Shown: in pieces, positions 10,931 to 36,267 of the stretch
Position numbering within the stretch: the first letter of the stretch is position 1
Layout: each line of letters starts with the position of its first letter
Source of the DNA: Verrucomicrobiia bacterium
Lineage (GTDB): Bacteria > Verrucomicrobiota > Verrucomicrobiia > Palsa-1439
Assembly: GCA_022072455.1 (NCBI GenBank)
Contig: JAJVHY010000014.1
Span: 1 to 57,692 of the forward strand
DNA length: 57,692 nucleotides
Direction of reading: 5' to 3'
Notes under the pieces: generated by a model
What the model was told of the DNA's origin: nothing
What the model saw: only the letters and a program-made list of their open reading frames with translations
Databases searched by the model: none
Program-made: the position numbers and the translations under genes

Positions 10931-11158
10931 ATGAGTGCCGATTGTTGCAGTACCCCGACCGCAGGCAAGAAATGCTGTCCCTGCAGTAAGTTTCCGGGAT
11001 TGTTGGTCATCCTATTCGGGTTGACCTTTCTGTTGCGGGAAACAGGATTGATCAGCCATCATTGCGCGGGCATTACCTGGCCCGTCATCCTGATCGTCGG
11101 CGGAGCCCATTACATGTTCCGCGACCTGTGCAAGTGCTGTAAGACGGAAGCGAACTAG
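10931..11158 (+). CDS. Small Cys-rich membrane protein
   Basis: A 75-residue protein with AAGGA upstream of its ATG. The N-terminus (CCSTPTAGKKCCPCSKFPG) and C-terminus (DLCKCCKTE) are cysteine-rich, flanking two hydrophobic helices (LLVILFGLTFLL and ITWPVILIVGGAHYMF). The second helix resembles the small LiaF/DUF5668-type membrane segment. It starts 22 bases after the SWIB stop and is probably the last gene of that transcript, since a hairpin follows. Possibly a metal-binding membrane peptide (inference). Confidence 0.6.
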   Translation: MSADCCSTPTAGKKCCPCSKFPGLLVILFGLTFLLRETGLISHHCAGITWPVILIVGGAHYMFRDLCKCCKTEAN

Positions 11159-11179
11159 TCGATCTGTCAACTATTCAAC

Positions 11180-11215
11180 GGGGCGATCTCAGCAATGGGG
11201 TCGCCTCTGTTGTTT
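11180..11215 (+). terminator. Possible intrinsic terminator after the H1/SWIB operon
   Basis: GGGGCGA at 11180-11186 pairs with TCGCCTC at 11201-11207 (one G:T pair), with a 14-base loop, followed by TGTTGTTT. It lies 20 bases downstream of the Cys-rich membrane gene. The T-tract is imperfect, so this is only a candidate. Confidence 0.4.
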
Positions 11216-11600
11216 ACTGAGGCTACACGGGCAGTTTAACTGCGGTTTGGGCTGCCTGCTTCAGATACTGCAACTACATCGCTTCCCGTGAGGTCAAATA
11301 ATTCATCTGGCGCAAAGTGGTGCTGAATCACCAGCCGCCGGGCCGTGGCCAATGCCAGTGGAGGTGGCAAAGCCACTAGATGCAAGCATGCGCGGGGGCA
11401 GTCAAGACAGTGGCGGCAGGACGGGACGACGTAGGGCGGCACACCGGTGCACAGCGCGGTCAGGCAAGTGAACTGCGCGGAGTCATTGTCAGGCGGCTTG
11501 GCGGTGGCAGAAATTCAGCAGTCCGCCCAACCGCCCTACTTTCACGAGAGACACCGCCGACTTTCTGTGGGAAGCAGCCCTTGACAATGCATAAATTCTT
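11216..11600. other. Intergenic stretch upstream of the BrnT-type module
   Basis: A minus-strand open frame (11236-11442, 68 codons) contains CRHCLDC, then LATARRLVIQHHFAPDELFDL, and may be a remnant of a larger gene, but I cannot assign it. No promoter or repeat was identified with confidence. Confidence 0.4.
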
Positions 11601-11885
11601 ATGCAGTCTAACCAAGTGGAATTTGAGTTCGACGCGGTTAAGTCCAAGGCCAATGAGGCAAAGCATGGCCTCGACTTCGTGACGGCGCAAGCGCTCTGGG
11701 CGGATGCAGGTTTGGTGATCCTCCCATCCCGATATGCGGACGAGCCGCGGTATTTGGCGATTGGGCGAATTGGTCAGCAACATTGGACGGCGATCTTTAC
11801 GGAACGGGGCAATACCGTGCGACTGATCAACGTTCGCCGGGCTCGCGACAATGAAAAGAGACTCTATGAACAAAACGAATCGTAA
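11601..11885 (+). CDS. brnT: BrnT-family toxin
   Basis: A 94-residue protein matching the BrnT (COG2929) ribonuclease toxin family by its blocks: FEFDAVKSKANEAKHGLDF, ALWADAG, DEPRYLAIGRIGQQHWTAIFTERGNTVRLINVRRARDNEKRLYE. The RxAR...E/YE C-terminal region that contains the RNase residues is intact. BrnT inhibits translation by RNA cleavage and is neutralised by its partner, encoded just downstream with a 20-base overlap. Function from family knowledge; activity is not visible from sequence. Confidence 0.9.
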   Translation: MQSNQVEFEFDAVKSKANEAKHGLDFVTAQALWADAGLVILPSRYADEPRYLAIGRIGQQHWTAIFTERGNTVRLINVRRARDNEKRLYEQNES

Positions 11886-12132
11886 GAATCTGGAACAACG
11901 GTTTACGGCAGGCGAGGACGTTCTCAACTACTTCGAAACAGATGTCGTCCTGAACATTCAGCGACTGGCAGAACTGGCGCCGATTCTCAACCTGTCGGCC
12001 TTGGCGCGGGAGGCCGGCATCAACATCCAGACGCTGCAGGCCAAGATTCGGCGGCAGACTCCGTTATCGGGGGCCGAAACCGCCTGTTTGGTCAATGCCC
12101 TGAAGAAGCATCACCTTGCCACTGTGAGTTAG
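11866..12132 (+). CDS. Probable antitoxin partner of BrnT, unusual C-terminus
   Basis: An 88-residue protein starting at ATG 11866 inside the end of brnT. The N-terminus (LEQRFTAGEDVLNYFE) matches the start of common BrnT-partner antitoxins (FD.GEDV). The usual ribbon-helix-helix C-terminal part is missing. In its place is IQRLAELAPILNLSALAREAGINIQTLQAKIRRQTPLSGAETACLVNAL, which looks like a helix-turn-helix (Cro/XRE-like). That would be a swapped DNA-binding module for autoregulation. No separate promoter is visible. Confidence 0.65.
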   Translation: MNKTNRKNLEQRFTAGEDVLNYFETDVVLNIQRLAELAPILNLSALAREAGINIQTLQAKIRRQTPLSGAETACLVNALKKHHLATVS

Positions 12133-12378
12133 CCATGAAAGCCCAACGACCATGGCCGGCCGATCATCTTGCTCGTAGGGTCGAAATGCTCATCTGACTT
12201 CGACGCACGAGATGGGACTGTCTACTCACAACGACCGGCACGATTGACTGTTGGCACAAAACCCTGTTTCGCTTTGGCAAGGTCGTCAGGAATCTCAAAT
12301 CCGGCGTATTGAGACATGCCCTGCCGTGGGCGTGATGTATTACTTGATTCTTTTTATAGTAATGCTAGGCTTACTTAC

Positions 12379-12630
12379 ATGATTGCCAAAGTTTCTGTCA
12401 AAGGTCAGATGGTCATTCCGGAGGCGGTACGTGAACAGGCGCGAATCCACGCCGGTGACGAAGTGGAAGTCGGCTACGCCAATGGCTTGGTTGTCCTGCG
12501 TAAACGCCAGCCGTTGACCGCTGCCCACGTTCGATCCCTGCTGCGGGGTGGCAGCGAATTGCCTAAGTTGTCCCCCAAGGATGAAGACGCCGTTGCCCGC
12601 GCTATTCAGCGGGTCCGCAGTCGGGCTTGA
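12379..12630 (+). CDS. AbrB/SpoVT-type antitoxin
   Basis: An 83-residue protein from ATG 12379. The N-terminal 45 residues are a swapped-hairpin AbrB domain (AKVSVKGQMVIPEAVREQARIHAGDEVEVGYANGLVVLRKR). The C-terminal tail (ELPKLSPKDEDAVARAIQRVRSRA) would wrap the toxin. Its stop overlaps the possible TTG start of the PIN gene, the standard antitoxin-toxin arrangement. The upstream 12133-12378 has no other gene. Confidence 0.85.
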   Translation: MIAKVSVKGQMVIPEAVREQARIHAGDEVEVGYANGLVVLRKRQPLTAAHVRSLLRGGSELPKLSPKDEDAVARAIQRVRSRA

Positions 12631-13397: not shown

Positions 13398-13703
13398 ATG
13401 CGATTTCAGCAAGCCGACCACGTCCCCAAGCGGGCGGGGGTGCGTCAGCTCCTGATTCTGGACAACGCGTCCTGGCACAAAGCGGCGCGCCGGAATTGGC
13501 ATCACTTTGAACCGTGGTATTGGCCGGGGTACTCGCTGGGTTTCAACCCGATCGAACGGCTGTGGTTACGCCTGAAGGCCGATTGGTTCTGGGACTTCAT
13601 CGCGCGCAGCGAGGCGGAACTTATTGACTGCTTGATGACGGGGTTGAAGAGTTTTATCGAAAACACCGCCAAAACTGCTTCCGTCTGCGCTTTTCGGAAA
13701 TGA
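13398..13703 (+). pseudogene. IS630-family transposase, C-terminal remnant
   Basis: About 100 codons encode the C-terminal part of an IS630/Tc1-like DDE transposase: LLILDNASWHKA (second catalytic Asp), WYWPGYSLGFNPIERLWLRLKADWF (the P-x-N-PIE-LW block with the third acid), and a normal C-terminal end. The N-terminal HTH and first catalytic Asp are absent; an in-frame stop lies just upstream at 13377. The terminal repeats were not found. It sits 30 bases from the end of the SGNH gene. Confidence 0.85.
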
Positions 13704-13734: not shown

Positions 13735-14352
13735 TCACCGGCCACTCACTGCATCCAGCCACGTCCGCGCCATCAACGCGAAGCCGGCGGCGGTCGGATG
13801 TACGCCGTCGAAAGCCCAATAGTCGGGCGGGGCTTGCTGTTGCGCGGCGGCAAAGGCGGCGTGGTACGGAACAAAACGCGCGCCAAACTCATCGGCCACC
13901 TGGCGGACCAGTGGCCGGCGGTGTTCCATGTCGGCGATGTGCGCGGGTTTGATGATGCCACAGGGCAGGACGAACGGTTCGCCCACGATGAAACGCACAC
14001 CCGGCAACGCCGCGCGCGTTTCGCTCAGGAGTTTCCGGTAGCGCGGCACGAATTGGCCCAGCGAAGTGGCGCTTAACGTGTCGTTGACCCCGATGAGGAT
14101 GCTGATGATTGTTGGTTGCAAAGCCAAACAGTCGGCGGGCCACCGCGTCGCCATCCGCTCCAGCGTATCGCCGGACACACCGCGATTGTGAAACGCCAAA
14201 TGATCGCCGGGTCGTTGGAGCAGCAACTGCGAGGCGATGAGCAAGGCGTACCCCGCGCCGAGCTGATAGGCATTGCTGACTTCTTCGGGTTTGCGAAAGG
14301 CGTTGGTGATGGAGTCGCCCTGAAACAGAATCGTGTCGTGTGGCTGGATCAT
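13735..14352 (-). CDS. SGNH/GDSL-family hydrolase
   Basis: A 205-residue enzyme of the SGNH esterase superfamily, last gene of the 18650-13735 operon. All blocks are present: GDS with Ser14 (FQGDSITN), Gly61 (NRGVSGDT), Asn90 (IGVND), and Asp182/His185 (FDGVHPT). No signal peptide, so it is cytoplasmic. Members of this size near glycan genes usually remove acetyl or other acyl groups from sugars. Its ATG overlaps the stop of the SIS gene (ATGA), which shows translational coupling. Substrate inferred from context only. Confidence 0.88.
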   Translation of the reverse strand: MIQPHDTILFQGDSITNAFRKPEEVSNAYQLGAGYALLIASQLLLQRPGDHLAFHNRGVSGDTLERMATRWPADCLALQPTIISILIGVNDTLSATSLGQFVPRYRKLLSETRAALPGVRFIVGEPFVLPCGIIKPAHIADMEHRRPLVRQVADEFGARFVPYHAAFAAAQQQAPPDYWAFDGVHPTAAGFALMARTWLDAVSGR

Positions 14353-15077
14353 AAGTAGTGAATCCGGTGGCGGTTTTGCCGGAGCAAGTTGGCGTTGTGG
14401 GCGTCGCCAGGATCGGTGTTGGCGCTGACGAAGACCGGCGGGGTCACGCCGCGGGCGACGAGGAGGCGGACCGTTTCGCAGGCCAGCGCGTTGACGATGG
14501 CGCAGCCGGTCACGGATGAGAGGGGGCCGACTTTGTGCGCAAATCCCGGCACCGCCACAGCGGCATCGCCATAGGGCGCACCGTTATCAATGACAATGTC
14601 GCACAGCTCGGCGAGTTTCTTGCCGGAGGGGTGCCGGCTGGTCACGCCTTTGGTGTACGCGAGCGCGGTAATGGCGATGGTCTGAATCTGGCGTTCGCGG
14701 GCGAGCAACGCCATGTCAATCGTCACCGCGTTGCGGCCGGAGGTGGACGCGAGGATTAGCACGTCGCCGGCTTGCGCGGGGGAGTTGGCGAGAAGTTCGG
14801 TGCCGAGGCCGACGACGCGTTCAAGTTTGGATGTCATGGGCAGCGGTTTGACGCTGAGATTCATGCCGTGCGGGTAAATCGGATTGACGAGCATCAAGCC
14901 GCCCGTCCGGTAGACCATTTCCTCGGCGAGCATGAACGAGTGCGACGCCCCGAACGCAAACAGACTCTTGCCGGTGCTGATCTTTTCGGAGAGCAACACG
15001 GCGGCGCGTTCGATGCCGGCCACATCAAGGGCACGAATGGCGGCGGCGGCCTGTTCCAGATAAGTGCGGGCGGACAT
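14349..15077 (-). CDS. SIS-domain protein (UPF0309-like), copy 1
   Basis: A 242-residue sugar-isomerase (SIS) fold protein of the UPF0309 type. Conserved blocks include FAFGASHSFMLAEEMVYRTGGL, GDVLILASTSGRNAVTIDMAL, TIAITALAYTKGVTSRHPSGKKL and CDIVIDNGAPYGDAAV. Members bind phosphosugars; the exact reaction is unknown. It is a paralog of the next upstream gene (shared SRHPSGKKL/ESLHPTGKKL and VIDNGAPYGDAAV). The context of an amino-sugar kinase upstream suggests a sugar-phosphate etherase, isomerase or deaminase-like role (inference). One base separates it from copy 2. Confidence 0.85.
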   Translation of the reverse strand: MSARTYLEQAAAAIRALDVAGIERAAVLLSEKISTGKSLFAFGASHSFMLAEEMVYRTGGLMLVNPIYPHGMNLSVKPLPMTSKLERVVGLGTELLANSPAQAGDVLILASTSGRNAVTIDMALLARERQIQTIAITALAYTKGVTSRHPSGKKLAELCDIVIDNGAPYGDAAVAVPGFAHKVGPLSSVTGCAIVNALACETVRLLVARGVTPPVFVSANTDPGDAHNANLLRQNRHRIHYL

Positions 15078-15078
15078 A

Positions 15079-15807
15079 TTAGTAGCCTCGTTCGTTGTAT
15101 TGTTTTTCGGCCGCTTTCAGATCGGCGATGCCGGTTGGGCGATTGACGCTCTGGAACACGGTGGCCGGCGTGCCGGTCGCGGCCATTTTTTCCAGTACGC
15201 GCCCCCACAGCATGTGCCCGGCAACGGCGCAACTCACGCCTGAAACCGGCAACAGCTTGTGCGTGTAGCCGGGAATCTCCACCGCCGCGTCGCCGTAGGG
15301 CGCGCCGTTGTCAATCACGACATCCACCACGTCGCAGAGTTTTTTGCCGGTGGGATGAAGTGATTCGACTTGCCGGGTGTAAGCCAGTGAGGTGAGGCCG
15401 ACGGTTTTGACGCCGCGCGCCCGGCAGGCGAGAGCGAGTTCGACCGGTGCGCGATTCTTGCCCGAGACGGACCCGAGGAGGAGGACGTCGCCCGCGCGGA
15501 GGGTACTGGTCGAGACTCCGAACCGGATGGTTTCGAGGTCGCGGTCGGGATTGGCGCGCGCGTGAACTGCGGGCGATTTGTCGGCGAGATCGAGCCGGCA
15601 ATGGAAGTGTTGGACGGCCGCGAGGCCCCCGGCGCGATGGATGAAATCGCCCTGAATGCCGTGGCCGATTTCCCAGCAGTAGATGACGCCGTTGTTTTGG
15701 AGCGCTTGGACGCAGAGATCGGCGGCGCGGTCGAGGGCGGGGAGTTGGGTGTTTTCGAGGTGTGTCAGCACGGCGCGAACAGCGGCGAGGTATTGGTGGG
15801 GAATCAT
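15079..15807 (-). CDS. SIS-domain protein (UPF0309-like), copy 2
   Basis: A 242-residue protein from ATG 15807, which overlaps the kinase stop by four bases (ATGA); the frame extends upstream but into the kinase gene. The SIS blocks are CWEIGHGIQGDFIHRAGGL, GDVLLLGSVSGKNRAPVELAL, TVGLTSLAYTRQVESLHPTGKKL and VDVVIDNGAPYGDAAVEIPGYTHK. It is clearly homologous to copy 1 but differs in the N-terminal phosphosugar-binding loop (GHGIQGD against GASHSFM), so the two may form a hetero-oligomer or take different substrates. Confidence 0.85.
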   Translation of the reverse strand: MIPHQYLAAVRAVLTHLENTQLPALDRAADLCVQALQNNGVIYCWEIGHGIQGDFIHRAGGLAAVQHFHCRLDLADKSPAVHARANPDRDLETIRFGVSTSTLRAGDVLLLGSVSGKNRAPVELALACRARGVKTVGLTSLAYTRQVESLHPTGKKLCDVVDVVIDNGAPYGDAAVEIPGYTHKLLPVSGVSCAVAGHMLWGRVLEKMAATGTPATVFQSVNRPTGIADLKAAEKQYNERGY

Positions 15808-16730
15808 AAGTGGTGGCCTTTTTGAAAGGTGGCAAATAATTTGGCGATGGCCGGCGGATTCGCCAGACCGATGGCTGCCAAACCAGCGACCGGCGGCAGT
15901 GGGACGCGCCGGGGTTGGAAGCGGGGCGCGATCCGGCGGACTTGCCGGCGGAGTTCGCGCCAATAGAGGTCGGACTGGGTCGCGACGCTGCCGGCACCGA
16001 CGAAGACGACTTTTTTTCCGGCGAGTCGCCAGTGGCGAACCAGATCGTGGACGGTGGCGGCCATGGCGGTCGCGCCGGTTCGCAATAAGGCGCGGGCCAA
16101 GGGATCGCCGGCTTCCGCTTCGTCATTTACGATCTTGGTCAGGGACGCAATGAGGGACCGGTCGCGGGGTTGCAGGCTGAATCGGACCAAATCGCCCATG
16201 TCGCGGCAGCGGCAGGCGCGGAGGACGCGGCGCCGCAGCCGCGTGACCGGGTGGCGGAGTTGCATCCCTCGCGCCAACGCGCGCAAGGTAGCGCGTCCGA
16301 TGTAGTAGCCGCTGCCGTCATCGCCCAACAGCGGCCCCAGGGCATCCAACGAAAACTCGGTGCCGGTCGCAGTGCGCCAAGTAATGCGCGCACCGGTGCC
16401 GGCAATCACCACGACGCCCGTGGTCTTCCCGATGGTGGCCAGCGCGGCAGCGGATTCCGAGGACGGCAGATTTTGTGCGAGCCGCCGCCACGCGGCTGGC
16501 AGGTACAGATTCCATTTTTTCCCGCCAATGGCGACGATGAGCAACGGGGCGGGAGTGTGGCCGCGCAAGACTTCGCGCATGGCCCGTTGCATGATTTTGG
16601 GGTGGCGACCGCCGAGTTTCCAGTCCCGCAACTGGTGGCGCGCGACGATGGTGCCGTTTGGTTTGACCAGCAGCGCAGCGCATTTGGTGCCGCCGGGATC
16701 AATGGCAAGGACGTACGAGAATGCTTTCAT
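15804..16730 (-). CDS. BadF/BadG-type ATPase, probable N-acetylglucosamine kinase
   Basis: A 308-residue member of the BadF/BcrA ATPase family, which includes eukaryote-type GlcNAc kinases. The ASKHA nucleotide-binding blocks are visible: AIDPGGTKCAALLV (phosphate 1), VVVIAGTGARI, GPLLGDDGSGYYIGRATLRA (GDEGSG in most members, here GDDGSG) and KKVVFVGAGSVA (adenosine). Likely reaction: ATP-dependent 6-phosphorylation of an imported amino sugar or glucose-type sugar in the cytoplasm. It lies 3 bases after the hydrolase gene and is coupled to the SIS genes. Confidence 0.85.
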   Translation of the reverse strand: MKAFSYVLAIDPGGTKCAALLVKPNGTIVARHQLRDWKLGGRHPKIMQRAMREVLRGHTPAPLLIVAIGGKKWNLYLPAAWRRLAQNLPSSESAAALATIGKTTGVVVIAGTGARITWRTATGTEFSLDALGPLLGDDGSGYYIGRATLRALARGMQLRHPVTRLRRRVLRACRCRDMGDLVRFSLQPRDRSLIASLTKIVNDEAEAGDPLARALLRTGATAMAATVHDLVRHWRLAGKKVVFVGAGSVATQSDLYWRELRRQVRRIAPRFQPRRVPLPPVAGLAAIGLANPPAIAKLFATFQKGHHL

Positions 16731-16733
16731 CGC

Positions 16734-18650
16734 TTACGCCAGCGCGGCGGGGCGGTCAACGCGTTGGCCGTTGACAATGAGTTCCTGGTGGTTGAAGTCG
16801 GCGGTGACTTCCGTGCCGTCGGCAAATCGTGTGGTGGTGATGCCGTCATTGGGTTCGTGGTAGTCCGTCAATTCCAGCGTTTGAAGATGGCCGAATTTTT
16901 TCAGGACGAGATCGTAGTGGGCTTTGAGTTTGGCCAGCAACCCGTCAGTGAGGACCGGCATGACGCCGGGATTGGCCGACCATTCCGTGCGCGGGTGGCC
17001 GCCGAGCAGGATGGCGTTCATGGCGGCGCCCCAGGTTTCGCCGTGATTCTCGTGGATGAGCAGACCGTGGAGTGCGAGGTGCCAGAGCGGGACGCGTTTT
17101 TCCAGCAAGGCCGTGACCGGCCAGTGCGGCGGACACGCTTTCAACATCCACTCCGCGCCACCCTGTACCATCGAATCCGCCGGCAACGCCGCGTAGAGAA
17201 AACCGCACTCCGTGCCGGCTGCGCCGTAGACTTTTTTGGCGGCTTCGATGATCCGTTGCGTGCCGCGCGCGTAACCGGTCCGCGTGCCGCGGTGGCGCGG
17301 GTGATAATCCCGGTAAAGCGGGTTGCCCATGCCATCAATGTAGCCGGCCCCGGTCAGTCCGAGCGCTTTCACGCCTTGTATCTCGCCTTCGAGCCGCTCG
17401 GCCGGCAGCGTCAACGCCCAGTGAATGTACGTGATTCCGCCGCCCCATTCGCCCAACCCCATCAACCCGCCCCATTGATCGTGGATCAGCAACTCCGGGT
17501 CGAAGTCCGGCGAACTCCGGTACGCGCTCAGGTAATTATCGTGGACGTTCATCTGGAATCCGAGGGAGTGGCCGGTCGCGAGGAGTTGCCGGAAGCCGCT
17601 TTCGCCGCCGAGGCGTTCCTCGATGGGAAACCGCGTCGGCCACAAACCATCGTGCCCGCGCGGATTCCAACCGACTGATTGCGTCACCACCTTGTCAATG
17701 CCAGCCGCGCGCACTTTCCGCAAGAGCGCGCCCGCTTCCGCGAAGTTCATCACCTGTTTGAAACTGAGCGCGCCCGCCTGCGGCGTGCCTTGCATCATGA
17801 TGCCGTTATGTTCGACTGCGTAAAACAATTTCATGATGTACGCGTCGTGCAAGTACGCCAACTCCGGCGATTCGCTCAGCCGCTGTTGCAACGTCGGTTT
17901 CTGGAGATCTTCCACCACATGCCGGCGGAGGCGTTTCGCGACGAATACGACCGGGTCGGCTTTGGCCGGGATGGGGGCGTAGCGGAGGACGCGCGTTTCG
18001 GGTTCGACCGGGTCCGGCCAGAATTGCCGGAACGACATCGCGAACGTCACTGTGCCCATGCCGGCGCCGTCAGTGGCGACATGACACTCCGTCTCGGCGG
18101 CACCGCCGGTTGCCAGGACCAGCCAATCGCCCGCCGCCGCGACCGGCAATGTCGGCAACAATTCCCACCGGCTTTGTTCGCCGTAAATCATAAACCGGTC
18201 GGCCACCTGCGGCTTGCCGGCGACGTTGCAGACGATGCCGGTGTTCAACGGGAGGATCAATTTGCCGGTGGTTTGCAGCAAACCCGGCAGGATGATCGCG
18301 GTGAAAGTCCGGTAGACTTCCGCTTTGTTTTCGTAAAGTTCGGCCAGCGGCAACGTCACCACCAATTCGCCGTTCTCGATGCGCAGCCACAGCCCGAGTT
18401 GGAGGCGCCGGAAACTGTCGCCGATCACGATATGCGCGCCGTCCGGCAACGGTTGGACGAGGTCGATCCGGTATTTCGTGAGCGTGTTGACGCGGAACTC
18501 GGCCTTGTCGTAGACCTCGACGTGCAGGAGTGGAACCGGCCCCCGGGTCGTCCCGGTGGCTGGGGCGCGCAGTGTCAGCCAGAGTTGGTCGGGCCGGTGT
18601 TCCAGCGTCGCTTGCAACCGGTCATCACCGAAAGTGACAGTCGTGCTCAT
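16734..18650 (-). CDS. Large glycoside-hydrolase-like protein (DUF5696/GH101-like)
   Basis: A 638-residue protein without signal peptide, first gene of the minus-strand operon. The N-terminal ~250 residues are beta-rich (a galactose-mutarotase-like or beta-sandwich region). The following TIM-barrel-like region contains SVGWNPRGHDGLWPTRFPIEERLGGESGF, FQMNVHDNY, ALGLTGAGYIDGMGNPLYRDYHP and a C-terminal small beta domain (TTTRFADGTEVTADFNHQELIVNG). The GxNPRGHDG...GG and HDNY blocks resemble DUF5696/GH101 endo-alpha-N-acetylgalactosaminidase-like enzymes; this family call is by eye and moderate. The catalytic Asp may be in HDNY or YIDGMG. With kinase and SIS genes it suggests breakdown of imported glycan pieces. 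Confidence 0.65.
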   Translation of the reverse strand: MSTTVTFGDDRLQATLEHRPDQLWLTLRAPATGTTRGPVPLLHVEVYDKAEFRVNTLTKYRIDLVQPLPDGAHIVIGDSFRRLQLGLWLRIENGELVVTLPLAELYENKAEVYRTFTAIILPGLLQTTGKLILPLNTGIVCNVAGKPQVADRFMIYGEQSRWELLPTLPVAAAGDWLVLATGGAAETECHVATDGAGMGTVTFAMSFRQFWPDPVEPETRVLRYAPIPAKADPVVFVAKRLRRHVVEDLQKPTLQQRLSESPELAYLHDAYIMKLFYAVEHNGIMMQGTPQAGALSFKQVMNFAEAGALLRKVRAAGIDKVVTQSVGWNPRGHDGLWPTRFPIEERLGGESGFRQLLATGHSLGFQMNVHDNYLSAYRSSPDFDPELLIHDQWGGLMGLGEWGGGITYIHWALTLPAERLEGEIQGVKALGLTGAGYIDGMGNPLYRDYHPRHRGTRTGYARGTQRIIEAAKKVYGAAGTECGFLYAALPADSMVQGGAEWMLKACPPHWPVTALLEKRVPLWHLALHGLLIHENHGETWGAAMNAILLGGHPRTEWSANPGVMPVLTDGLLAKLKAHYDLVLKKFGHLQTLELTDYHEPNDGITTTRFADGTEVTADFNHQELIVNGQRVDRPAALA

Positions 18651-22751: not shown

Positions 22752-24200
22752 ATGCGCTTGCTGTTGACTTCGATCCTCAGCGCCCTGGTGTTATTGACCA
22801 TCATCGCCCAGTGGTTAAAACCGGCGCCGCCGCAAGATGGCAAAACGCCGCTGGTCTGGGTGAGTGACAATAATCCCGAGCGGCAGCGCCAGATCACGAC
22901 TTTCAACCAATTGCACCCGGATCTCCGACTGAATCTCGACCCGAACAATACCGGGCTGCAGAAGGTCATCGTGCAGAGCAGCAGCGGGGTGGGGCCGGAC
23001 TTGTGTGATAGCTACAGCGCAGGGCAGTTGCAGACGTTGGTGGATACCGGGATTGCGTGGGACATCACGGAGCCGGCGGCCGCGCAAGGGTTCGCCATGG
23101 CGGACAAAGTCTGGCCCGGCGCTGCCGCGGAAATCTCCTACAATGGCCGGCAGTACAGTTATCCCTGCAACGTCAACGTGGATATTTTGATCTACAACAA
23201 AAATATCTTCGACCGTTTTGGGGTGCCGTATCCCCGCGCTGACATGACTTGGGACGAGTTCGTCACGGTGGCCAAACAAGTCACCCGGTTGGAACAGGGG
23301 GGGCGCGACGCGGTTTATGGCGTGACCGGCTTGAGCTGGTTGCATTTTTTTGCTGCCGAGCGCGGTGAGTTTTTTTCGCCCGATGGAACGCGGTTGTTGA
23401 TGCAGGGAACACCGTTGCGCGCCGCGTTCCAACGGCACCATGATTTGCTCCACGTCCACCGGGTTTCGCCGACGTCGCTCGATATCACGACGATGTCCGG
23501 TCAGGGTGGGTGGGGGGCTGGCAACATCAATTTGTTCGCTGATGGCCGGTTTGCCATGGTCACCATCGGCAAGTGGGTGTTGATCCGGCTGCGCGGCGCG
23601 CATGCCGATCAGTTGAAGCGCTTGGCGCGTTGGGAGGCGAATCCGGCGCGAAACCCGGCCGAGCGGCCGGTCGTGTTACGGCTCGGTTCGGTCCCGTTGC
23701 CGTGTCTGCCGGGCCGGTCACCATCCTATCTGGTCGGCTCGCGGTCAGCGGTGGTGAACGCCCGCAGCACCCGGCGCACTGACGCGGTGCAGTTTCTGAA
23801 ATATTTGTCCGGGCCCGAATACAGTCGGTTGATCAACGAAGGCGTGGACGCGTTGCCCGGCAACCCGGCGCATGTGAATCTCGGGTTGCGGGAGGGGGTG
23901 CCGGATCTGGCCGAACTCGAAATGCATAGTAACACCGTGGCGGCGATCCAATCTGGGTTTGGTTTCCGCAAAAGTCCGTTCTTGCTCACCAGCGATGTGG
24001 AGCGGTTGTTGAAAGATGCCGTCAATCGCATGGAAACGAGTCCGACGCTGCCGGTGACAGAGTTGTTGGCGGATGTGGAGCGGAGCTTGATCGGGTTGAT
24101 GCAGCGGAACCTGAATCGCGACCCGGCCTTGCGCGCCCGCTATCGTGAGTTGACCGGCACGGCGGACGTGGCGGCAGCGCACCGGGAGCCCGCGCCGTGA
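22752..24200 (+). CDS. ABC transporter sugar-binding protein (family 1)
   Basis: A 482-residue extracellular solute-binding protein of the MalE/UgpB type. An N-terminal hydrophobic segment (LLLTSILSALVLLTIIAQWL) without lipobox works as a membrane anchor or signal. Blocks: LVWVSDNNPERQRQITTFNQLHPDL, GVGPDLCDSYSAGQLQTLVDTGI, YSYPCNVNVDILIYNKNIFDRFGVPYP, TWDEFVTVAKQVT. Captures oligosaccharides in the periplasm for the two permeases that follow. The C-terminal extension is long (ELLADVERSLIGLMQRNLN). Overlaps the next gene by four bases (GTGA). Confidence 0.9.
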   Translation: MRLLLTSILSALVLLTIIAQWLKPAPPQDGKTPLVWVSDNNPERQRQITTFNQLHPDLRLNLDPNNTGLQKVIVQSSSGVGPDLCDSYSAGQLQTLVDTGIAWDITEPAAAQGFAMADKVWPGAAAEISYNGRQYSYPCNVNVDILIYNKNIFDRFGVPYPRADMTWDEFVTVAKQVTRLEQGGRDAVYGVTGLSWLHFFAAERGEFFSPDGTRLLMQGTPLRAAFQRHHDLLHVHRVSPTSLDITTMSGQGGWGAGNINLFADGRFAMVTIGKWVLIRLRGAHADQLKRLARWEANPARNPAERPVVLRLGSVPLPCLPGRSPSYLVGSRSAVVNARSTRRTDAVQFLKYLSGPEYSRLINEGVDALPGNPAHVNLGLREGVPDLAELEMHSNTVAAIQSGFGFRKSPFLLTSDVERLLKDAVNRMETSPTLPVTELLADVERSLIGLMQRNLNRDPALRARYRELTGTADVAAAHREPAP

Positions 24201-25312
24201 GCACGCCGCTTCGCGATCAGAAAAATTTCCGCGTGGCGTGGTTGTTTTTGTTGCCGAACTTTTTGGGATTTCTGATTTTTGGGTTGGTGCCGTTGCTGCT
24301 GAGTCTGGCGGGAAGTTTCACGACGTGGAGTTTGCGGCCGGCGGTACCGTTGCAGTTTGTGGGATTCACCAACTACATCGAGCTGTTTCGCGACCGGAAT
24401 TTTTATTTCTACCTCTACAACACCGCGTACCTGATGCTGGGCTTGCCGGTTGCCATCGCGGGGGCGTTGACGCTGGCGGTGTTGTTGAATCAACGCTTGA
24501 ATTTCAAGCAGCCGCGTTACCGGCCGGGCTTGGCGCTGGCGGCGGCGGTGGTGGGGGTGGGCAGCGCGGCCATGTTGTGGGTGAGCGGCGCGCCGAGTCT
24601 GGCGTATATTTTGTTGGCGTTGGGAGTGCTCAGCACGCTCGGGTTTTTGTTTGGCTCAGTGTCGTACCGGACTTTTTTCTATCTGCCGCATTTTACAGCG
24701 GGCGCGGCGACGATTTTGTTGTGGACGCAGTTGTACAATCCCAACTTCGGGCTGATCAATCAGACGCTCCGGCAAGTCTATGATTTCTTCGGCGTGACGT
24801 GGGAGGTGCCGGGGTGGTTGACCAGCACGAAATCGTTGCTGGGGTTTCTGCCGTTGCCGGCGCACTTCAACAACGGCGGGTTCGGTCTCGGGGCGCGCGA
24901 GGCGATCATGCTGATGGGGGTTTGGGGCGCGATTGGCGGCAACACGATGTTGTTGTACCTGGCCGGGCTGTCGAACATCCCGCCGGATTTGTACGAGGCA
25001 GCGGACATTGATGGCGCGAGTTCGTGGCAACGGTTTTGGCACATCACCTTCCCGCAACTGGCGCCGACGACGTTTTTCGTGACGATCATGGGCGTGATCG
25101 GCGGGTTGCAGGGCGGTTTTGAGCAGGCGCGATTGATGACCCAAGGCGGCCCCGCCGGGACGACCACCACGATCAGTTATTACATCTACACGCAAGGCTT
25201 CGAGCGGCTCGACCTCGGGTATGGCGCGGCGGTGGCGTGGGTCTTGTTCGTGATGATTCTGGTGTTGACGTTGGCGAACTGGAAATTCGGCAGCCGGCGA
25301 ATGAGCGATTGA
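24197..25312 (+). CDS. ABC sugar transporter permease, MalF-like, with extra membrane pair
   Basis: A 371-residue inner-membrane permease. The EAA loop that docks the ATPase is at residues 267-290 (YEAADIDGASSWQRFWHITFPQLAP). Relative to ordinary ~300-residue MalF-like sugar permeases there is a ~50-residue insertion at about 106-156 (ALAAAVVGVGSAAMLWV, LAYILLALGVLSTLGFLFG), two additional hydrophobic helices placed just before the conserved RTFFYLP block. A pair of helices keeps the topology. GTG start overlaps the binding-protein stop. No ATPase gene is present in the window; a shared MsmK-type ATPase elsewhere is likely. Confidence 0.9.
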   Translation: MSTPLRDQKNFRVAWLFLLPNFLGFLIFGLVPLLLSLAGSFTTWSLRPAVPLQFVGFTNYIELFRDRNFYFYLYNTAYLMLGLPVAIAGALTLAVLLNQRLNFKQPRYRPGLALAAAVVGVGSAAMLWVSGAPSLAYILLALGVLSTLGFLFGSVSYRTFFYLPHFTAGAATILLWTQLYNPNFGLINQTLRQVYDFFGVTWEVPGWLTSTKSLLGFLPLPAHFNNGGFGLGAREAIMLMGVWGAIGGNTMLLYLAGLSNIPPDLYEAADIDGASSWQRFWHITFPQLAPTTFFVTIMGVIGGLQGGFEQARLMTQGGPAGTTTTISYYIYTQGFERLDLGYGAAVAWVLFVMILVLTLANWKFGSRRMSD

Positions 25313-25319
25313 ACCGACC

Positions 25320-26174
25320 ATGTTACTCTGGCAAGAACTGAAGACGTTGCTGCGGCACCTCGTGATGATCACGCTGGCAATCATGATGGTGGTGCCGTTT
25401 CTGTGGATGGTCGGCACCAGTTTCAAGCCGCACAGCGAAGTGGAACGCCCCGCGTTGTTGCCGGAGCAGGCGCAGCCGGAAAACTACGCCATCGTCCTGC
25501 GCCGCGCTCCGGATCCGTACACGCAGCGGTTCCTCGATCTCGATTTTCCGAAGTGGTACTTCAACAGCCTGTTCGTCGCCGCGTGGGTGACGGCGTTGCA
25601 GGTGCTGACAAGCTGCATGGCGGCGTATGCGTTTTCGCGGATCGAATGGCGTTGGCGTGACAAACTGTTTTTCCTCTACCTGAGCACGATGATGATACCC
25701 GGCTTGGTGCTCATGTTGCCGAATTATCAGATCATGGTGAAACTTGGGTTGGTGAACACGTATCTCGGACTGATTTTGCCGGCGGCGTTCAGCGCGTTTG
25801 GGACGTTTCTGATGCGACAATTCATGCTTGGCATCCCCAAGAGCTACGACGAAGCCGCCGAGATTGATGGCGCGAATCATCTCCAGATTTTCCTCGATGT
25901 GATTCTCCCGCTCGCCCGGCCCGGCATGATCACGCTGACCATCTTCACTTTCATGGGCAACTTCCAATCGTTTTTCTGGCCGTTGGTCATGGTGAAGGAT
26001 GACCATCTCCGCACCATCCCGATTGGGCTGCTCAGTTTTCAGAGTCAATACGGCCAGCAGACCGAATTGATCATGGCCGCGACTGTCATGAACATCGTCC
26101 CGCTGATCATTCTGTTCGTGACGATGCAAAAACAACTCGTTGCCGGCATCCAACTCGGTGGCGTCAAGGGTTGA
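25320..26174 (+). CDS. ABC sugar transporter permease, MalG-like
   Basis: A 284-residue permease with six helices. The EAA motif is SYDEAAEIDGANHLQIFLDVILPLARPG at about residues 177-204, and the N-terminus (LAIMMVVPFLWMVGTSFKPHSE) and TNPLVM-like block FFWPLVMVKDDHLRTIPIGL are classic for carbohydrate permeases of the MalG/CUT1 class. It forms the transport pore together with the MalF-like protein. It starts 7 bases after that gene and ends the plus-strand operon; a convergent hydrolase follows. Confidence 0.92.
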   Translation: MLLWQELKTLLRHLVMITLAIMMVVPFLWMVGTSFKPHSEVERPALLPEQAQPENYAIVLRRAPDPYTQRFLDLDFPKWYFNSLFVAAWVTALQVLTSCMAAYAFSRIEWRWRDKLFFLYLSTMMIPGLVLMLPNYQIMVKLGLVNTYLGLILPAAFSAFGTFLMRQFMLGIPKSYDEAAEIDGANHLQIFLDVILPLARPGMITLTIFTFMGNFQSFFWPLVMVKDDHLRTIPIGLLSFQSQYGQQTELIMAATVMNIVPLIILFVTMQKQLVAGIQLGGVKG

Positions 26175-26268: not shown

Positions 26269-27879
26269 TCAGTTTGATTTCCGAAAAACTGACAGGCGCT
26301 GCGTGAGGGCGCGGCGGCTGACGGGGGCGACGAGCCATTCGGCGTTTTCCGCATGATAGATCCGGTTCAATTCCTCAAAATACTCGTCGGCTTTGTCGGT
26401 GGGGCGACCGGCGGAGCACTGTAACTCGTCGCCCAGCAACGCCCGCAAGAACACCACGCGCCACCGCCAGGCCGTGCGTTTTTCCGCCGGTAACTGCGCG
26501 TCCACGCGGCGGAGGCGCTCGACTGTGCTCGCGGCGGCCGGGTTGGCCGGGATCACGTAGATGCGCGGCAGTTGATCCGGGAATCCATCCCAGCCGCCAC
26601 CATACAACACGTCGTGAATGGTTTTGTGATCAATGCTGAGATGGTCTTTAGCGTCGGTCATCGCCGTTTCGAGCGCGAAGATCAGTTCCACCATTTCGTC
26701 GGCCACTGCGGGCGAGAATTCGGCGGCAGCGTATTCGCGGAGGATGTCGCGCGTCGAACGCCGGCTGTCCCACGCCAGTTGCAGCAGGCAGACCTTGTTC
26801 AAGTCCTCGTAGATGCCTTCGGAGTACGGCAAGATGCCGGCGAGTTTGTCGCCGAGTTCGTTCCAGTAGTTTTGCCAGCGCGTCGGGCGCGGATTCGCGC
26901 CGAATGCGCCCCACGGCCACATGTTGACCATGCTGATCTCGGGAAAACTGATCATTGGTAAGCCGCCCGGCGTGCCGTGTTCGAGCGGATACTTGGGAAA
27001 CGCGTGTGGGTTGTCGGCCAAGAGGTAATCCACCCAAGCCGGTGCGCCATTCGCGAATGCCCGGCCCAAACCAGCCCACTCGCCGTCAATGTGCTTGTCG
27101 AAATACCACGCCGACAAGCCCGTCTTCGCGGCGGGATAATTCTGGCGCACGAGCTTGGCCACGGCTTCGGCGGCGCGGAGATAACCATTCGCACCCCACG
27201 GCTTGCAAGCCGCACAGGTGCAGCCGCCCTGGTCGTACGGCCAGAGTGTGAAACACCCGACATTCAACCCGCGAAACGCATCCAGCATTTGCTGCCGGGA
27301 CTCGCAGATCAACTCCAGCCCACCCGGCTTGTTCGGGCACAACTCGACGCCGTACGCGCCAATGTCGCGCCGATAGCCGTTCTCCTTCCAGTGAAAATCC
27401 GCGCGCAATTCGGCCCGGCTGTTCGCAAACCCTTCATTGGCCAACCCTAATAATGTGGCGCTCATCCCGACGCTCTCCGCCGTCGTTAAAATCGCCCGCA
27501 ACCGCGTCACCATCGCCTGCGCCGCCGGGTCCTGCATCCCGTGAAAATGATGCATGTCGAACCAGACCGCCAATCCATTGCAGCCCCACAACGCCAGCTC
27601 CTCGACATACCGGCACACTTCGTCAACGGGGGCGTCGTGATAAAAATTGTGGAAGTGCGAGGCGAAATAAATCAGCCGGAGCGGCTTCTCCGGCACCGAA
27701 GTCCCGCGCCAGCTCGGATCGCGCAGATGCTTGCCGACGCCGTAGATCAGACCGCGTTCGTCATTGCCGGTAATGCCATTGTCATCAATCCGAAACCCTT
27801 CCGCGCCAATGCCGGGTTGAATGTTCAGGGCAATCGATCGTCCTCCATACCGTTCGAGCAACTCCCGTGCTTTCTTCAT
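26269..27879 (-). CDS. Glycoside hydrolase-like protein (GH20/GH67-type fold), paralog A
   Basis: A 536-residue protein with no signal peptide. The N-terminal part (IQPGIGAEGFRIDDNGITGNDERGLIYGVGKHLRD) is the alpha/beta hexosaminidase-type N-terminal domain that precedes the barrel in GH20 and GH67 enzymes. The barrel then shows LRLIYFASHFHNFYHDAP, WGCNGLAVWFDMHHFHGMQ, GLANEGFANS, CPNKPGG, and DQGGCTCAACKPWGANGYL, with four Cys that may bind zinc. The C-terminal helical part includes LPAEKRTAWRWRVVFLRALLGDEL. Two close paralogs lie at 32791-34341 and 34543-36174. Substrate unknown; probably a glucosaminide or uronide glycosidase acting on imported pieces. Confidence 0.72.
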   Translation of the reverse strand: MKKARELLERYGGRSIALNIQPGIGAEGFRIDDNGITGNDERGLIYGVGKHLRDPSWRGTSVPEKPLRLIYFASHFHNFYHDAPVDEVCRYVEELALWGCNGLAVWFDMHHFHGMQDPAAQAMVTRLRAILTTAESVGMSATLLGLANEGFANSRAELRADFHWKENGYRRDIGAYGVELCPNKPGGLELICESRQQMLDAFRGLNVGCFTLWPYDQGGCTCAACKPWGANGYLRAAEAVAKLVRQNYPAAKTGLSAWYFDKHIDGEWAGLGRAFANGAPAWVDYLLADNPHAFPKYPLEHGTPGGLPMISFPEISMVNMWPWGAFGANPRPTRWQNYWNELGDKLAGILPYSEGIYEDLNKVCLLQLAWDSRRSTRDILREYAAAEFSPAVADEMVELIFALETAMTDAKDHLSIDHKTIHDVLYGGGWDGFPDQLPRIYVIPANPAAASTVERLRRVDAQLPAEKRTAWRWRVVFLRALLGDELQCSAGRPTDKADEYFEELNRIYHAENAEWLVAPVSRRALTQRLSVFRKSN

Positions 27880-31876: not shown

Positions 31877-32794
31877 TCAGAGTTGAGCGATGGCCAAACC
31901 AGTGCCGGACGCGCCGAAGCCGTTTCCGTTGTAGAACATCAGATACTCCGCGCCGCGCTTAACCACGTAAGCATACTCGACCATTTCTGAATCCCAACCG
32001 GTCGCGGATGGTTCAATGCCGGCGGGCCGCCGCGTCCAGTGCCGGCCATCGGTTGATTCCGCATAACCAATCCGGTAGGTCGCGCCATCTGAACGCGTGG
32101 CAAACCACATCCGGTAACCGTCCGCTTCCTTGAGCACGGCCGGGCGGCCGATGGCGTATTCCTTGTCGTCGATGAAATCGATGGCGAGATTGTCGGCCGG
32201 TTTCTCCCAATGAATGCCGTCGGCGGACTCGGCGTATTTGATGTGATAGAAGTGCCGCCAGCTGCCGTCCGGCATCTGCCGCCATTCCCGAAACGTCGTG
32301 TACCACATCCGCCAGAAATCCGGCCGCTCACGCAACACATCGACCGTTCCGACGCCAATCGGGTCGCGCTCGTCAATCAGCGGCAGTGGCGCTTCTGACC
32401 AACGCCGCCACGTCGCGCCGTTATCGTCACTGATGGCCAAGCCGCACCGGTTGACGAAGAAGCCCGGCGCGGTCAATCCCCAGCCGACGTAGTACAGATA
32501 CAATTGCGTGGCCGAAACCCGCACCACCGTTGGCATGCAGAGGCCGTGCGAATCGAAACACCCCATCCGGCCCGCAGCCAATACCGGCTTATCCTGGGTG
32601 ATGTTGAATTGGGCATCGAGGTCCACCCAGCCGATCTGAAACCGGCCCTTCTCATCCTTGCCGGTGAGAAAGACCCGGTAACCGCCGTCATCCGCCGGCA
32701 AGACCGAAGTCATCCCGGCATGGGCAGACCGCCAAGCCGGTGCGCCTTGCGGTGAAATGATGCAGCCTAGTTTTTTCCAGACGATTGTTTTCAT
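31877..32794 (-). CDS. Five-bladed beta-propeller glycosidase-like protein (GH43/GH130-like)
   Basis: A 305-residue protein from ATG 32794, which overlaps the upstream hydrolase stop (ATGA). It has the repeating propeller pattern of GH43/GH130-type proteins: MTSVLPADDGGYRVFLTGKDEKG, LYLYYVGWG, CGLAISDDNGATWRRWSEAPL, WRMWYTTFREW, IKYAESADGIHWEKP, YRMWFATRSDGATYRIGYAESTDGRHWTRRP, and a final EYLMFYNGNGFGASGTGLA. Catalytic residues cannot be fixed by eye. No signal peptide, cytoplasmic. Probably acts with the paralog B hydrolase encoded just before it. Confidence 0.75.
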   Translation of the reverse strand: MKTIVWKKLGCIISPQGAPAWRSAHAGMTSVLPADDGGYRVFLTGKDEKGRFQIGWVDLDAQFNITQDKPVLAAGRMGCFDSHGLCMPTVVRVSATQLYLYYVGWGLTAPGFFVNRCGLAISDDNGATWRRWSEAPLPLIDERDPIGVGTVDVLRERPDFWRMWYTTFREWRQMPDGSWRHFYHIKYAESADGIHWEKPADNLAIDFIDDKEYAIGRPAVLKEADGYRMWFATRSDGATYRIGYAESTDGRHWTRRPAGIEPSATGWDSEMVEYAYVVKRGAEYLMFYNGNGFGASGTGLAIAQL

Positions 32795-34341
32795 AGTTTT
32801 GGGAAGACAGGTTTCAGCCGGGTGAGTGCGCGGCGGCTGACCGGGCTGACGAGCCAATCCGCCTGATCGGTGTGATAAATCCGATTGAGCTCCTCGAAAT
32901 ACGCGTCGCTCTGAGTAGTCGGTCGGCCGGCGGAGCGGTGTAACTCATCATCCAGCAACGCGCGCAGCAGCAGCACGCGCCAGCGCCAGCCAGCCCGTTT
33001 TTCCGCCGGCAATTCGGCGTCCACTCGGCGCAACGTCGCGAGCGCGTCACTCGCCGCCGGCAACTTGTAGATGCGCTCGGTGTCCCAACTGCCGCCGTGC
33101 AACGCGCGCCCGATGGCGTGATGGTCAATGTCGTGCGCTTGGGCCGTTTCGAGAGCCAGCAGGGCGTTGACGACGCTGGCCGCGGTGGCCGGTGAAAATT
33201 CGGCGGCGCAGTATTCGTGGGCGATGTCGCGGAGCGGGCGGCGGCGGTCCCAGCCGTGTTGAAGGTGGAGCACTTTGTTGAGGTCTTCGTAGATGCCCTC
33301 CGAATACGGAATCGCCACGGCCAACCGGCTGTCCGCATCGTTCCAGTACTCCTGCCAATGCGCCACGCGCGGGTTCGCGCCGAACGCACCCCACGGCCAC
33401 ATGTTCGCCATGCTGATTTCGGGAAATCCGATGATCGGCAAACCGCCCGGCACACCCGGCTTCAACGGATACTCTGCCAACAGGCAATCGGCCCAAACCG
33501 GCGCGCCGTTGGCGAACGCGCGGTTCAAGCCATCCCACTCGCCGTCGATGTGCAGATCGAAATGCCAGGTCACCAGCATCGCCTTGGCATTCGGGAACGT
33601 CTTTTTCACCAGAGGCGCGACGACGGCGCAGGTTTTGAGATGACCATTCGCGCCCCACGGTTTGCATTGTTGGCAAGTGCAACCGCCTTGGTCGTAAGCG
33701 CCGAGGGAGAACAGGCCAACATTCAATCCGCGAAACGCAGCAAGCATCTCCTGCCGATACCGGCAGATCAACTCCAGCCCGCCCGGCTTATTCGGGCAAA
33801 TCTCCACGCCGTAAGCGATGATGTCGCTCTTGTAGCCGTTTTCCTTCCAGCGAAAATCACCGCGTTGTTCGAGCGGACTGTTGGCGTATGCCTCGTTGAC
33901 AAGCATTGCCAACCCCGATTGCATTCCGACGCTTTCCGCCGTCTCCAACATTTTTCGCAGGCGCTGGATCATCGCCTGCGCCGCCGGGTCGTTGATGCTG
34001 GTGTAATGGTGCATGTCGAACCAGACCATCAACAGATTGCAGCCCCAGAGCGCGAGTTCCTCGATATACCGGCACACATCGGCGATGGGCGCGTCGTGGT
34101 AGAAGTTGTGGAAGTGCGTCGCGAAATACATCGGCCGCAGCGCCCGGTCCGGCACTGAAGTCCCGCGCCAGCTCTGGTCGCGCAGATATTTCCCCACGCC
34201 GTAAATCAACCCGCGCTCGTCGTTGCCGGTGATACCGTCATCATCGATGCGAAAACCTTCCGCTCCGATGCCGGGTTGGATGGTGAGTCGGATGTCGGAC
34301 TTGCCGCCGTATCTTTCGAGTAACTCTCGCGCTTTCCTCAT
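32791..34341 (-). CDS. Glycoside hydrolase-like protein (GH20/GH67-type fold), paralog B
   Basis: A 516-residue protein if it begins at ATG 34341 (RKARELLERYGGK aligns with the start of paralog A); the open frame continues to 34410. Same blocks as paralog A: EGFRIDDDGITGNDERGLIYGVGKYLRD, MYFATHFHNFYHDAP, LWGCNLLMVWFDMHHY, CPNKPGGLELICRY, DQGGCTCQQCKPWGANGHL and the C-terminal LPAEKRAGWRWRVLLLRALLDDEL. Highly similar to paralogs A and C, so this is a recent family expansion. First gene of the operon with the beta-propeller and the SGNH fragment. Confidence 0.75.
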   Translation of the reverse strand: MRKARELLERYGGKSDIRLTIQPGIGAEGFRIDDDGITGNDERGLIYGVGKYLRDQSWRGTSVPDRALRPMYFATHFHNFYHDAPIADVCRYIEELALWGCNLLMVWFDMHHYTSINDPAAQAMIQRLRKMLETAESVGMQSGLAMLVNEAYANSPLEQRGDFRWKENGYKSDIIAYGVEICPNKPGGLELICRYRQEMLAAFRGLNVGLFSLGAYDQGGCTCQQCKPWGANGHLKTCAVVAPLVKKTFPNAKAMLVTWHFDLHIDGEWDGLNRAFANGAPVWADCLLAEYPLKPGVPGGLPIIGFPEISMANMWPWGAFGANPRVAHWQEYWNDADSRLAVAIPYSEGIYEDLNKVLHLQHGWDRRRPLRDIAHEYCAAEFSPATAASVVNALLALETAQAHDIDHHAIGRALHGGSWDTERIYKLPAASDALATLRRVDAELPAEKRAGWRWRVLLLRALLDDELHRSAGRPTTQSDAYFEELNRIYHTDQADWLVSPVSRRALTRLKPVFPKL

Positions 34342-34410
34342 GGGTGGATTTATTGGGAAACCACCGGCAGCTTGCAAGCGAATGTTCGCAGTGAACCACG
34401 TCAGCGGCAT

Positions 34411-36174: not shown

Positions 36175-36267
36175 GGGCGGATTTATTGCCGTCCGATTGA
36201 TTGGATGCAAGTCCGGTATTGGTGGGCTGCGCGGCCGGTCGTCTGACTGCCAATGACGGCCGGGGAC

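Follow-up and report, generated by a model that had tools for sequence, protein, structure and literature searches.

The minus strand of a 57,692-nucleotide (nt) stretch from contig JAJVHY010000014.1 of a Verrucomicrobiia bacterium (this whole stretch is called the window below) carries, between positions 13735 and 18650, genes for a DUF5696 protein, a BadF-type sugar kinase, two diverged SIS proteins of the UPF0309 family (SIS1 and SIS2) and an SGNH hydrolase, in that order. A preliminary description had seen in all five together a resemblance to a route from glycan to phosphorylated amino sugar. This five-gene reading is replaced here by a narrower one, a kinase-SIS1-SIS2 module with two unusual sequence features: the position of the catalytic base of the kinase looks changed, and SIS1, judged by its alignment with a characterized homolog, has a rebuilt sugar/phosphate pocket in which most catalytic positions are kept. 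The five genes of the window are the following:

16734-18650, minus strand: DUF5696 glycosidase (PF18952, E = 1.6e-22, 80.3 bits, cut-off 25.6)
15804-16730, minus strand: BadF-family (NAGK/hexokinase-like) sugar kinase, core gene 1 (PF01869, E = 4.8e-13, 49.7 bits, cut-off 31.5)
15079-15807, minus strand: SIS1, a diverged UPF0309/PRK02947 protein, core gene 2 (NF002805, 183.3 bits, cut-off 135)
14349-15077, minus strand: SIS2, a UPF0309/PRK02947 protein, core gene 3 (NF002805, 275.6 bits, cut-off 135)
13735-14352, minus strand: SGNH/GDSL hydrolase (PF13472 GDSL_2, E = 1.2e-27, 98 bits, cut-off 32.9)

Much of the preliminary description of this stretch holds. All five open reading frames (ORFs) are present; the DUF5696 and kinase genes are separated by 3 nt and SIS1 and SIS2 by a single nt, while the kinase and SIS1 genes overlap by 4 nt (the ATG of SIS1, at 15807, overlapping the kinase stop), as do those of SIS2 and the SGNH hydrolase. 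With stops and starts overlapping by 4 nt or lying 1 to 3 nt apart, the five genes are therefore tightly coupled. The two SIS proteins both exceed the NF002805 cut-off and are 35% identical over 227 columns, confirming them as diverged UPF0309 proteins, and the SGNH assignment is likewise borne out by a score above its cut-off. Inspection by eye revealed no obvious signal peptide at the start of any of the five proteins.

The co-occurrence of these genes was analyzed in 31 loci with SIS1-type sequences from 30 genomes, that of the window included. Their sources were genomes of the window's class and phylum, further Verrucomicrobiota (including Opitutae and Lentisphaeria), Armatimonadota (including Chthonomonas), one Firmicutes metagenome-assembled genome and uncultured-bacterium records; Verrucomicrobiota and Armatimonadota make up most of the sample, and stretches of 3.9 to 20 kb were fetched per locus. 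The adjacency table was built without L119, which lies on the same contig as L091, and without L038, which is the SIS2 of genome G006. From one set of 24 matches, L095 (a SIS2) and L096 (of the single type) were not scored as SIS1, and duplicates of the G-numbered genomes were counted once.

In 23 of the 31 loci SIS1 is immediately followed by SIS2 on the same strand (stop-to-match distances of 2-307), and one or two genes intervene between them in two more (L036 and L092). The remaining six SIS1 are that of G006, that of L082, where the contig ends, those of L094 and L117, and two copies in G510. The kinase gene adjoins SIS1 or SIS2 in 25/31 loci: in 23 it directly precedes SIS1, and in two (L091 and L118) it follows SIS2. 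Within the stretches fetched, DUF5696 stands beside the SIS pair in the window only (1/31), and an SGNH gene accompanies the core in just two loci, the window and L040, where the protein is 30% identical and is encoded on the other side of the kinase gene. A search of 384 genomes of the class for DUF5696 at E<=1e-15 gave matches in 25; of the 8 class genomes that carry SIS1, three of which are 76-85% complete, only 2 were among these. Clustering of the neighbors, from which L035, L037, L038, L041 and L119 were left out, yielded no conserved fourth gene beyond close relatives, except for a LacI-type cluster in three loci (the window, L040 and L078). Because the kinase, SIS1 and SIS2 recur, while DUF5696 does so at none of the other loci and SGNH at one, the conserved unit is kinase-SIS1-SIS2; DUF5696 and SGNH have the appearance of local additions to this three-gene core. 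Tested for all five genes, co-occurrence thus stands for three of them and was rejected for DUF5696 and SGNH. No account of a kinase-SIS1-SIS2 module was found in the literature searched, most subscription journals lying outside the reach of that search.

The two SIS genes are also tied together at the level of whole genomes. Sequences of SIS2 proper, recognized by scores above 350 bits (the next best match scores 196), occur in 8 of 387 genomes of the phylum, and SIS1 is present in all eight; SIS1 itself was detected at E<=1e-40 in 10/387. The two 387-genome samples of the SIS1 and SIS2 searches agree in number and in the handles listed and were taken as one draw, for which the joint occurrence is highly significant (Fisher test; p-value: 4e-15, uncorrected for kinship). 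UPF0309 proteins as such are common, with 105/387 phylum genomes matching the SIS2 profile at E<=1e-30. In a tree of 96 rows, to which 13 single-type loci were added and from which the L093 pair was omitted as too short, the 30 SIS1 rows lie on one side of a branch with 100/99 support and the 24 SIS2 rows are set apart with 98/97, support for the relation among SIS1, SIS2 and NagS, the characterized homolog, being only 68/11. The distance matrices of SIS1 and SIS2 correlate across 24 shared genomes (r = 0.61, a value reached by 0 of 10000 label shuffles), SIS1 being the more diverged of the two (mean pair distance 1.39 vs 0.95). As common descent also yields such a correlation, these data demonstrate joint inheritance and not contact.

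Structural comparison places both proteins next to NagS. AlphaFold models of SIS1 (pLDDT 90) and SIS2 (pLDDT 87.5) have as their nearest solved structure NagS 9eol, with Z 27.8 and a root-mean-square deviation of 2.2 over 228 aligned residues for SIS1, and Z 32.9 and 1.6 over 241 for SIS2. The second match was 3cvj in both cases (Z 26.8 and 30.6, respectively), other SIS proteins reaching Z 18.8 or less. Over NagS residues 21-249, SIS2 is 40% and SIS1 30% identical to NagS. According to its report, NagS is an N-acetylglucosamine 6-phosphate (GlcNAc-6P) dehydratase and a homodimer whose active sites each combine residues of the two subunits, with His53, Ser54, Ser91, Glu94, Ser119 and Ser121 contributed by one chain and Arg64 and Asn228 by the other (PMC12680351). 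The same report describes mutants H53A, R64A, E94A and D179A as dead and S91A and N228A as weak, and residues Ser54, Ser119 and Ser121 as not crucial on the basis of their alanine mutants; it restricts NagS to Streptomycetaceae, where the gene adjoins dmdR1 and orthologs are at least 58.7% identical (PMC12680351). Both SIS1 and SIS2 fall below this value.

Compared at the positions so described, SIS2 keeps the equivalents of His53, Arg64, Ser91, Glu94, Ser119, Ser121, Asp179 and Asn228 wherever they could be scored (25 sequences, 23-25 scorable per position), including Glu94 in 24/24 and Asn228 in 23/23, with Ser54 in 22/25 and Ala in the other three. SIS1 retains His53, Arg64, Ser119, Ser121 and Asp179 in 31/31 sequences and Asn228 in 29 of 30 scorable ones. 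Its differences lie elsewhere: Ser54 is Ser in only 5/31 and Gly in 22, the Ser91 position holds Arg in 20/31 and Ser in 2/31 (in the hhalign/phmmer register), and closely behind the catalytic His, only a few residues on, two residues are deleted. The predicted helix that follows this His is shortened in the SIS1 model, where it spans residues 51-54 as against 45-56 in that of SIS2. The earlier statement that the twins differ in the substrate-binding loop is thereby substantiated, and their being inactive, which had been allowed for, finds no support, since by alignment SIS2 keeps all of the NagS catalytic positions and SIS1 most of them. A set of single-type sequences was collected for the same comparison of residues; it comprised 25 of the 30 regions of this type that had been fetched, together with a gene from L094 and another from L096.

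The position of the catalytic Glu in SIS1 depends on the alignment. In the phmmer and hhalign registers SIS1 Glu92, which lies early in a helix predicted for residues 89-100, is the equivalent of NagS Glu94 and is Glu in 27/31 sequences; among the other four, the SIS1 of UBA1393 has a Glu one residue earlier. A reading based on MAFFT, that SIS1 had lost the catalytic Glu, was dropped in view of this agreement. As MAFFT on one side and hhalign and phmmer on the other disagree, the equivalence is not certain, and SIS1 Glu92 probably corresponds to NagS Glu94.

The kinase matches Sulfolobus hexokinase 2e2n (5.6e-17) and human NAGK (1.9e-8), and scores 59.1 bits against the NagK equivalog NF046058, below its cut-off of 370. 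Its Glu92 aligns gap-free (HMMER) with Asp107 of human NAGK (chain 2ch6), which we take to be the catalytic base. Counted back from the GTG motif, position -19 holds Glu in 23 of the 24 module kinases scored and Gln in one (G008); the kinase of G042, cut by the contig end, was not scored. For comparison, 30 kinase loci were fetched from a longer table, 21 of them from genomes without SIS1. Nineteen of these 21 had a scorable motif (all except L219 and L222), and an Asp was found in 18 of the 19, at position -20 in 15 and at -23 in three (by eye), and never exactly at -19. Seventeen further kinases lie away from the module in SIS1 genomes. Five of them, presumably dehydratase activators by their motif, were not used; of the rest, nine carry a nearby Asp, that of L188 (G510) carries Glu, and those of L195 and L200 showed no Asp. 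Four of five control kinases have the Asp, and L121 (the same gene as L200) lacks it. With Glu in 23/24 module kinases and rare in the others compared, this is the one near-invariant acid of the module kinases at this site, and the catalytic-base position looks changed in the HMMER alignment. The label of a GlcNAc-type kinase is therefore upheld as regards homology and qualified as regards this apparent change. A stronger wording, that the kinase plainly swapped Asp for Glu, was softened because in 10/24 an Asp either immediately precedes the Glu or follows it at a distance of two residues, and because the MAFFT register differs. As a separate observation, L211 (G466:C66:16734-17633) encodes a BadF kinase without the usual Asp and with Glu residues nearby, in a genome with no SIS1 match.

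Kinases scoring above 200 bits against the module profile were found in 7 of 377 phylum genomes, all seven with SIS1; the profile (A5) was built from module kinases, those of the window and of G457 among them, which match by construction. The module kinases of G539 and G436 score 147 and 137 bits against a best non-module score of 140, and the kinase of G510 above 200 bits is not beside its SIS1.

As for the DUF5696 protein of the window, the DUF5696 part of its former designation holds and the label GH101-like is weak, PF12905 scoring 19.8 bits, below the cut-off of 25. Among solved structures it comes closest to the alpha-N-acetylgalactosaminidase 5wzn (E = 7.6e-8, residues 298-458), which we take to belong to glycoside hydrolase family 129 (GH129). 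In GH129 an Asp serves as nucleophile and a Glu as acid/base. Asp439 of the DUF5696 protein aligns with residue 435 of the 5wzn chain (counted by eye) and, like Glu481, is invariant in an alignment of 12 sequences; the search for the acid/base position on the solved chain gave no alignment for Glu481.

From these data we tentatively propose a cytoplasmic module in which a BadF-type kinase and a SIS1-SIS2 heterodimer act on a phosphorylated N-acetylhexosamine; substrate, reaction and heterodimer are all predicted, and we put the proposal at somewhat under an even chance. By homology, the kinase would phosphorylate an N-acetylhexosamine-like sugar, probably at O6, and SIS1 and SIS2 would then act on the sugar phosphate, most likely as a heterodimer. 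One site of this dimer would be NagS-like, formed by the body of SIS2 and the Arg/Asn of SIS1, and the other would be the rebuilt sugar/phosphate pocket, formed by the body of SIS1 and the Arg/Asn of SIS2. Because both proteins keep the Arg and Asn that cross the interface, a mixed dimer with two unequal sites is chemically reasonable. The chemistry would probably resemble that of NagS and MurQ, in which the ring opens and the C3 substituent is lost; rehydration might then follow at the second site. In the genome of the window, gene order and homology suggest that a DUF5696 alpha-glycosidase and an SGNH esterase may release the sugar inside the cell. A more specific form of the proposal, with an obligate heterodimer of unequal sites, a kinase that uses Glu as its base and an undescribed amino-sugar-phosphate conversion such as elimination followed by re-addition, we regard as unlikely.

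A number of observations weigh against the module with a heterodimer as just proposed. Three lineages with diverged SIS1, namely L094, L117 (= G387) and the two G510 copies, lack an adjacent SIS2, G006 carries SIS1 and SIS2 on different contigs, and G004, of the window's genus, has the SIS1-SIS2 pair with no kinase next to it and no match to P0002 at E<=1e-15. Neighbors outside the core vary widely between loci. The mirrored trees of SIS1 and SIS2 follow from shared descent and, together with adjacency and coupling, fit two separate homodimeric enzymes equally well. NagS homologs of 25.7-35.7% identity had negligible or no activity on GlcNAc-6P, according to the NagS report (PMC12680351), and GlcNAc-6P is therefore doubtful as the substrate of SIS1 and SIS2. 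In addition, MAFFT puts no conserved SIS1 Glu in the Glu94 column (D 16, E 5, N 5, P 2, A 2, H 1; n = 31). Two further results concern the kinase and speak against a clean swap of Asp for Glu: in the MAFFT alignment the 2e2n Asp comes two columns later than the kinase Glu, and among the 24 module kinases an Asp is present at -20 in three and at -17 in seven, 14 having no Asp from -21 to -17. Apart from these points, we noted that in G004 a phosphoglucomutase-like gene (L035, 972-2603, by eye) precedes SIS1 in the place of the kinase, and that in L117 (G387) a group II intron-type reverse transcriptase ORF (11147-12535, by eye) follows SIS1, with no adjacent SIS2.

The explanation closest to the one we propose is that SIS1 and SIS2 are independent homodimers acting in sequence on the kinase product, for instance with elimination by SIS2 and hydration, epimerization or isomerization by SIS1. 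We consider it possible, on the doubtful side. Each protein has a nearly complete catalytic set, NagS is a homodimer (PMC12680351), and SIS1 differs mainly at sugar/phosphate contacts (Ser54, Ser91 and the loop deletion), which is what a change of substrate would lead one to expect; homodimers do not by themselves explain why SIS2 proper was not found without SIS1 (8/8), though a two-step pathway could. Another way to account for a diverged twin is that SIS1 is a phosphosugar-sensing regulatory subunit controlling SIS2 or the kinase, as the SIS protein GKRP controls glucokinase (PMC4109836). The phosphate-binding Ser119 and Ser121, kept in 31/31 while Ser54 (5/31) and Ser91 (2/31) are mostly absent and the Glu92 column lacks Glu in 4/31, would suit such a role, as would the larger variation of SIS1 between genomes (1.39 vs 0.95) and the presence of GKRP chains among the structural matches of the SIS2 model. 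The invariant His53, Arg64 and Asp179 and the Glu94 equivalent in 27/31 exceed the needs of a pure binding protein, and we judge a regulatory SIS1 to be quite improbable. Least probable of all, in our estimate, is a dedicated five-gene pathway from glycan to amino-sugar phosphate in which DUF5696 and SGNH are essential. The tight coupling of all five genes in the window speaks for it, as do the alpha-N-acetylgalactosaminidase relationship of the DUF5696 protein and the invariance of its Asp and Glu in relatives; against this stand the adjacency of DUF5696 in 1/31 loci and of SGNH in 2/31, and the 6 of 8 class genomes with SIS1 in which no DUF5696 match was found at E<=1e-15.

Kinase and SIS genes are also paired outside the module. 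At least 17 genomes in which SIS1 is missing have one UPF0309 gene and a BadF kinase gene on the same strand and no more than 1 kb apart, a common two-gene arrangement; the figure derives from 22 same-contig pairs picked by eye (examples are G092:C1:1025643-1027118 and G289:C13:78028-79500). The kinase-SIS link is thus wider than the module, and the twin-SIS set looks like an elaboration of this wider pairing. A separate pairing of kinase and etherase was observed where BadF kinase genes lie directly beside MurQ-family genes (G008:C20:13133-14809, G626:C421:17450-19196 and G626:C117:10752-12479).

The surroundings of the other copies include amino-sugar genes in some cases, a PIG-L deacetylase (L039) and NanE (L121, with SIS1 and without SIS2) by Pfam and NagB-like ORFs in L039 and L040 by eye. 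Other sugar genes were GH4 (L042), PfkB (L078) and DUF4838 (L117), and unrelated genes were found elsewhere. In L083, L084, L086, L089 and L090 (Chthonomonas/Armatimonadota), the gene directly upstream of that for the kinase belongs to a family that includes a PFL-like glycyl radical enzyme; the L083 copy matches PF02901 at 3e-215. In the window, components of an ABC importer are encoded nearby on the opposite strand, a binding protein (22752-24200) and a permease (24197-25312) by Pfam and a second permease (25320-26174) by eye, and a transposase-like fragment (13398-13703, plus strand, by eye) lies just beyond the end of the operon. Three window ORFs (26269-27879, 32791-34410 and 34543-36210) have in common a stretch resembling GAEGFRIDD.GITGNDERGL (by eye); two of the three were scanned and gave no Pfam match. 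Their neighborhood also holds a DUF2961 gene, as well as a pair of LacI-type regulators (36268 and 43768) with near-identical starts.

NagS is the only UPF0309 protein with a reaction in the literature searched, and the module provides a gene-order handle on the reaction of another, as the kinase that should make the substrate is encoded in the same operon. The natural pair of paralogs shows which pocket residues change together and, if the heterodimer is real, would represent a SIS enzyme split into two unequal subunits. To our knowledge, sugar kinases of this fold have Asp as a rule, and a kinase with Glu in its place would, if confirmed, be an exception among them. That the kinase-SIS1-SIS2 set is kept across several bacterial groups suggests an undescribed step of sugar breakdown.

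Among known systems, NagS (SCO4393 of Streptomyces) is the closest. SIS1 and SIS2 share its UPF0309 family and its fold, NagS being the nearest solved structure of both models, and have its catalytic His, Arg, Asp and Asn, together with the Glu in SIS2 and probably in SIS1. NagS is a single gene forming a homodimer, whereas two diverged paralogs stand here behind a kinase. MurQ shares the SIS fold, its chains matching the SIS2 model at Z 18.2-18.8, and catalyzes ring opening and loss of the C3 substituent; however, neither SIS1 nor SIS2 has a MurQ family among its NCBIfam matches at E<=0.001. A possible replacement of MurQ by the module was considered in the 17 module genomes, which were the only ones compared; MurQ over its cut-off was found in 4 of them and not in G000. 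The DUF5696 protein differs from 5wzn in that the match between them is local only. The module kinase has the sequence of a BadF-type sugar kinase, like human NAGK, Sulfolobus hexokinase 2e2n and MurK 8zo3, and departs from NAGK at the residue aligned with Asp107, where module kinases have Glu (23/24) or, in one case, Gln.

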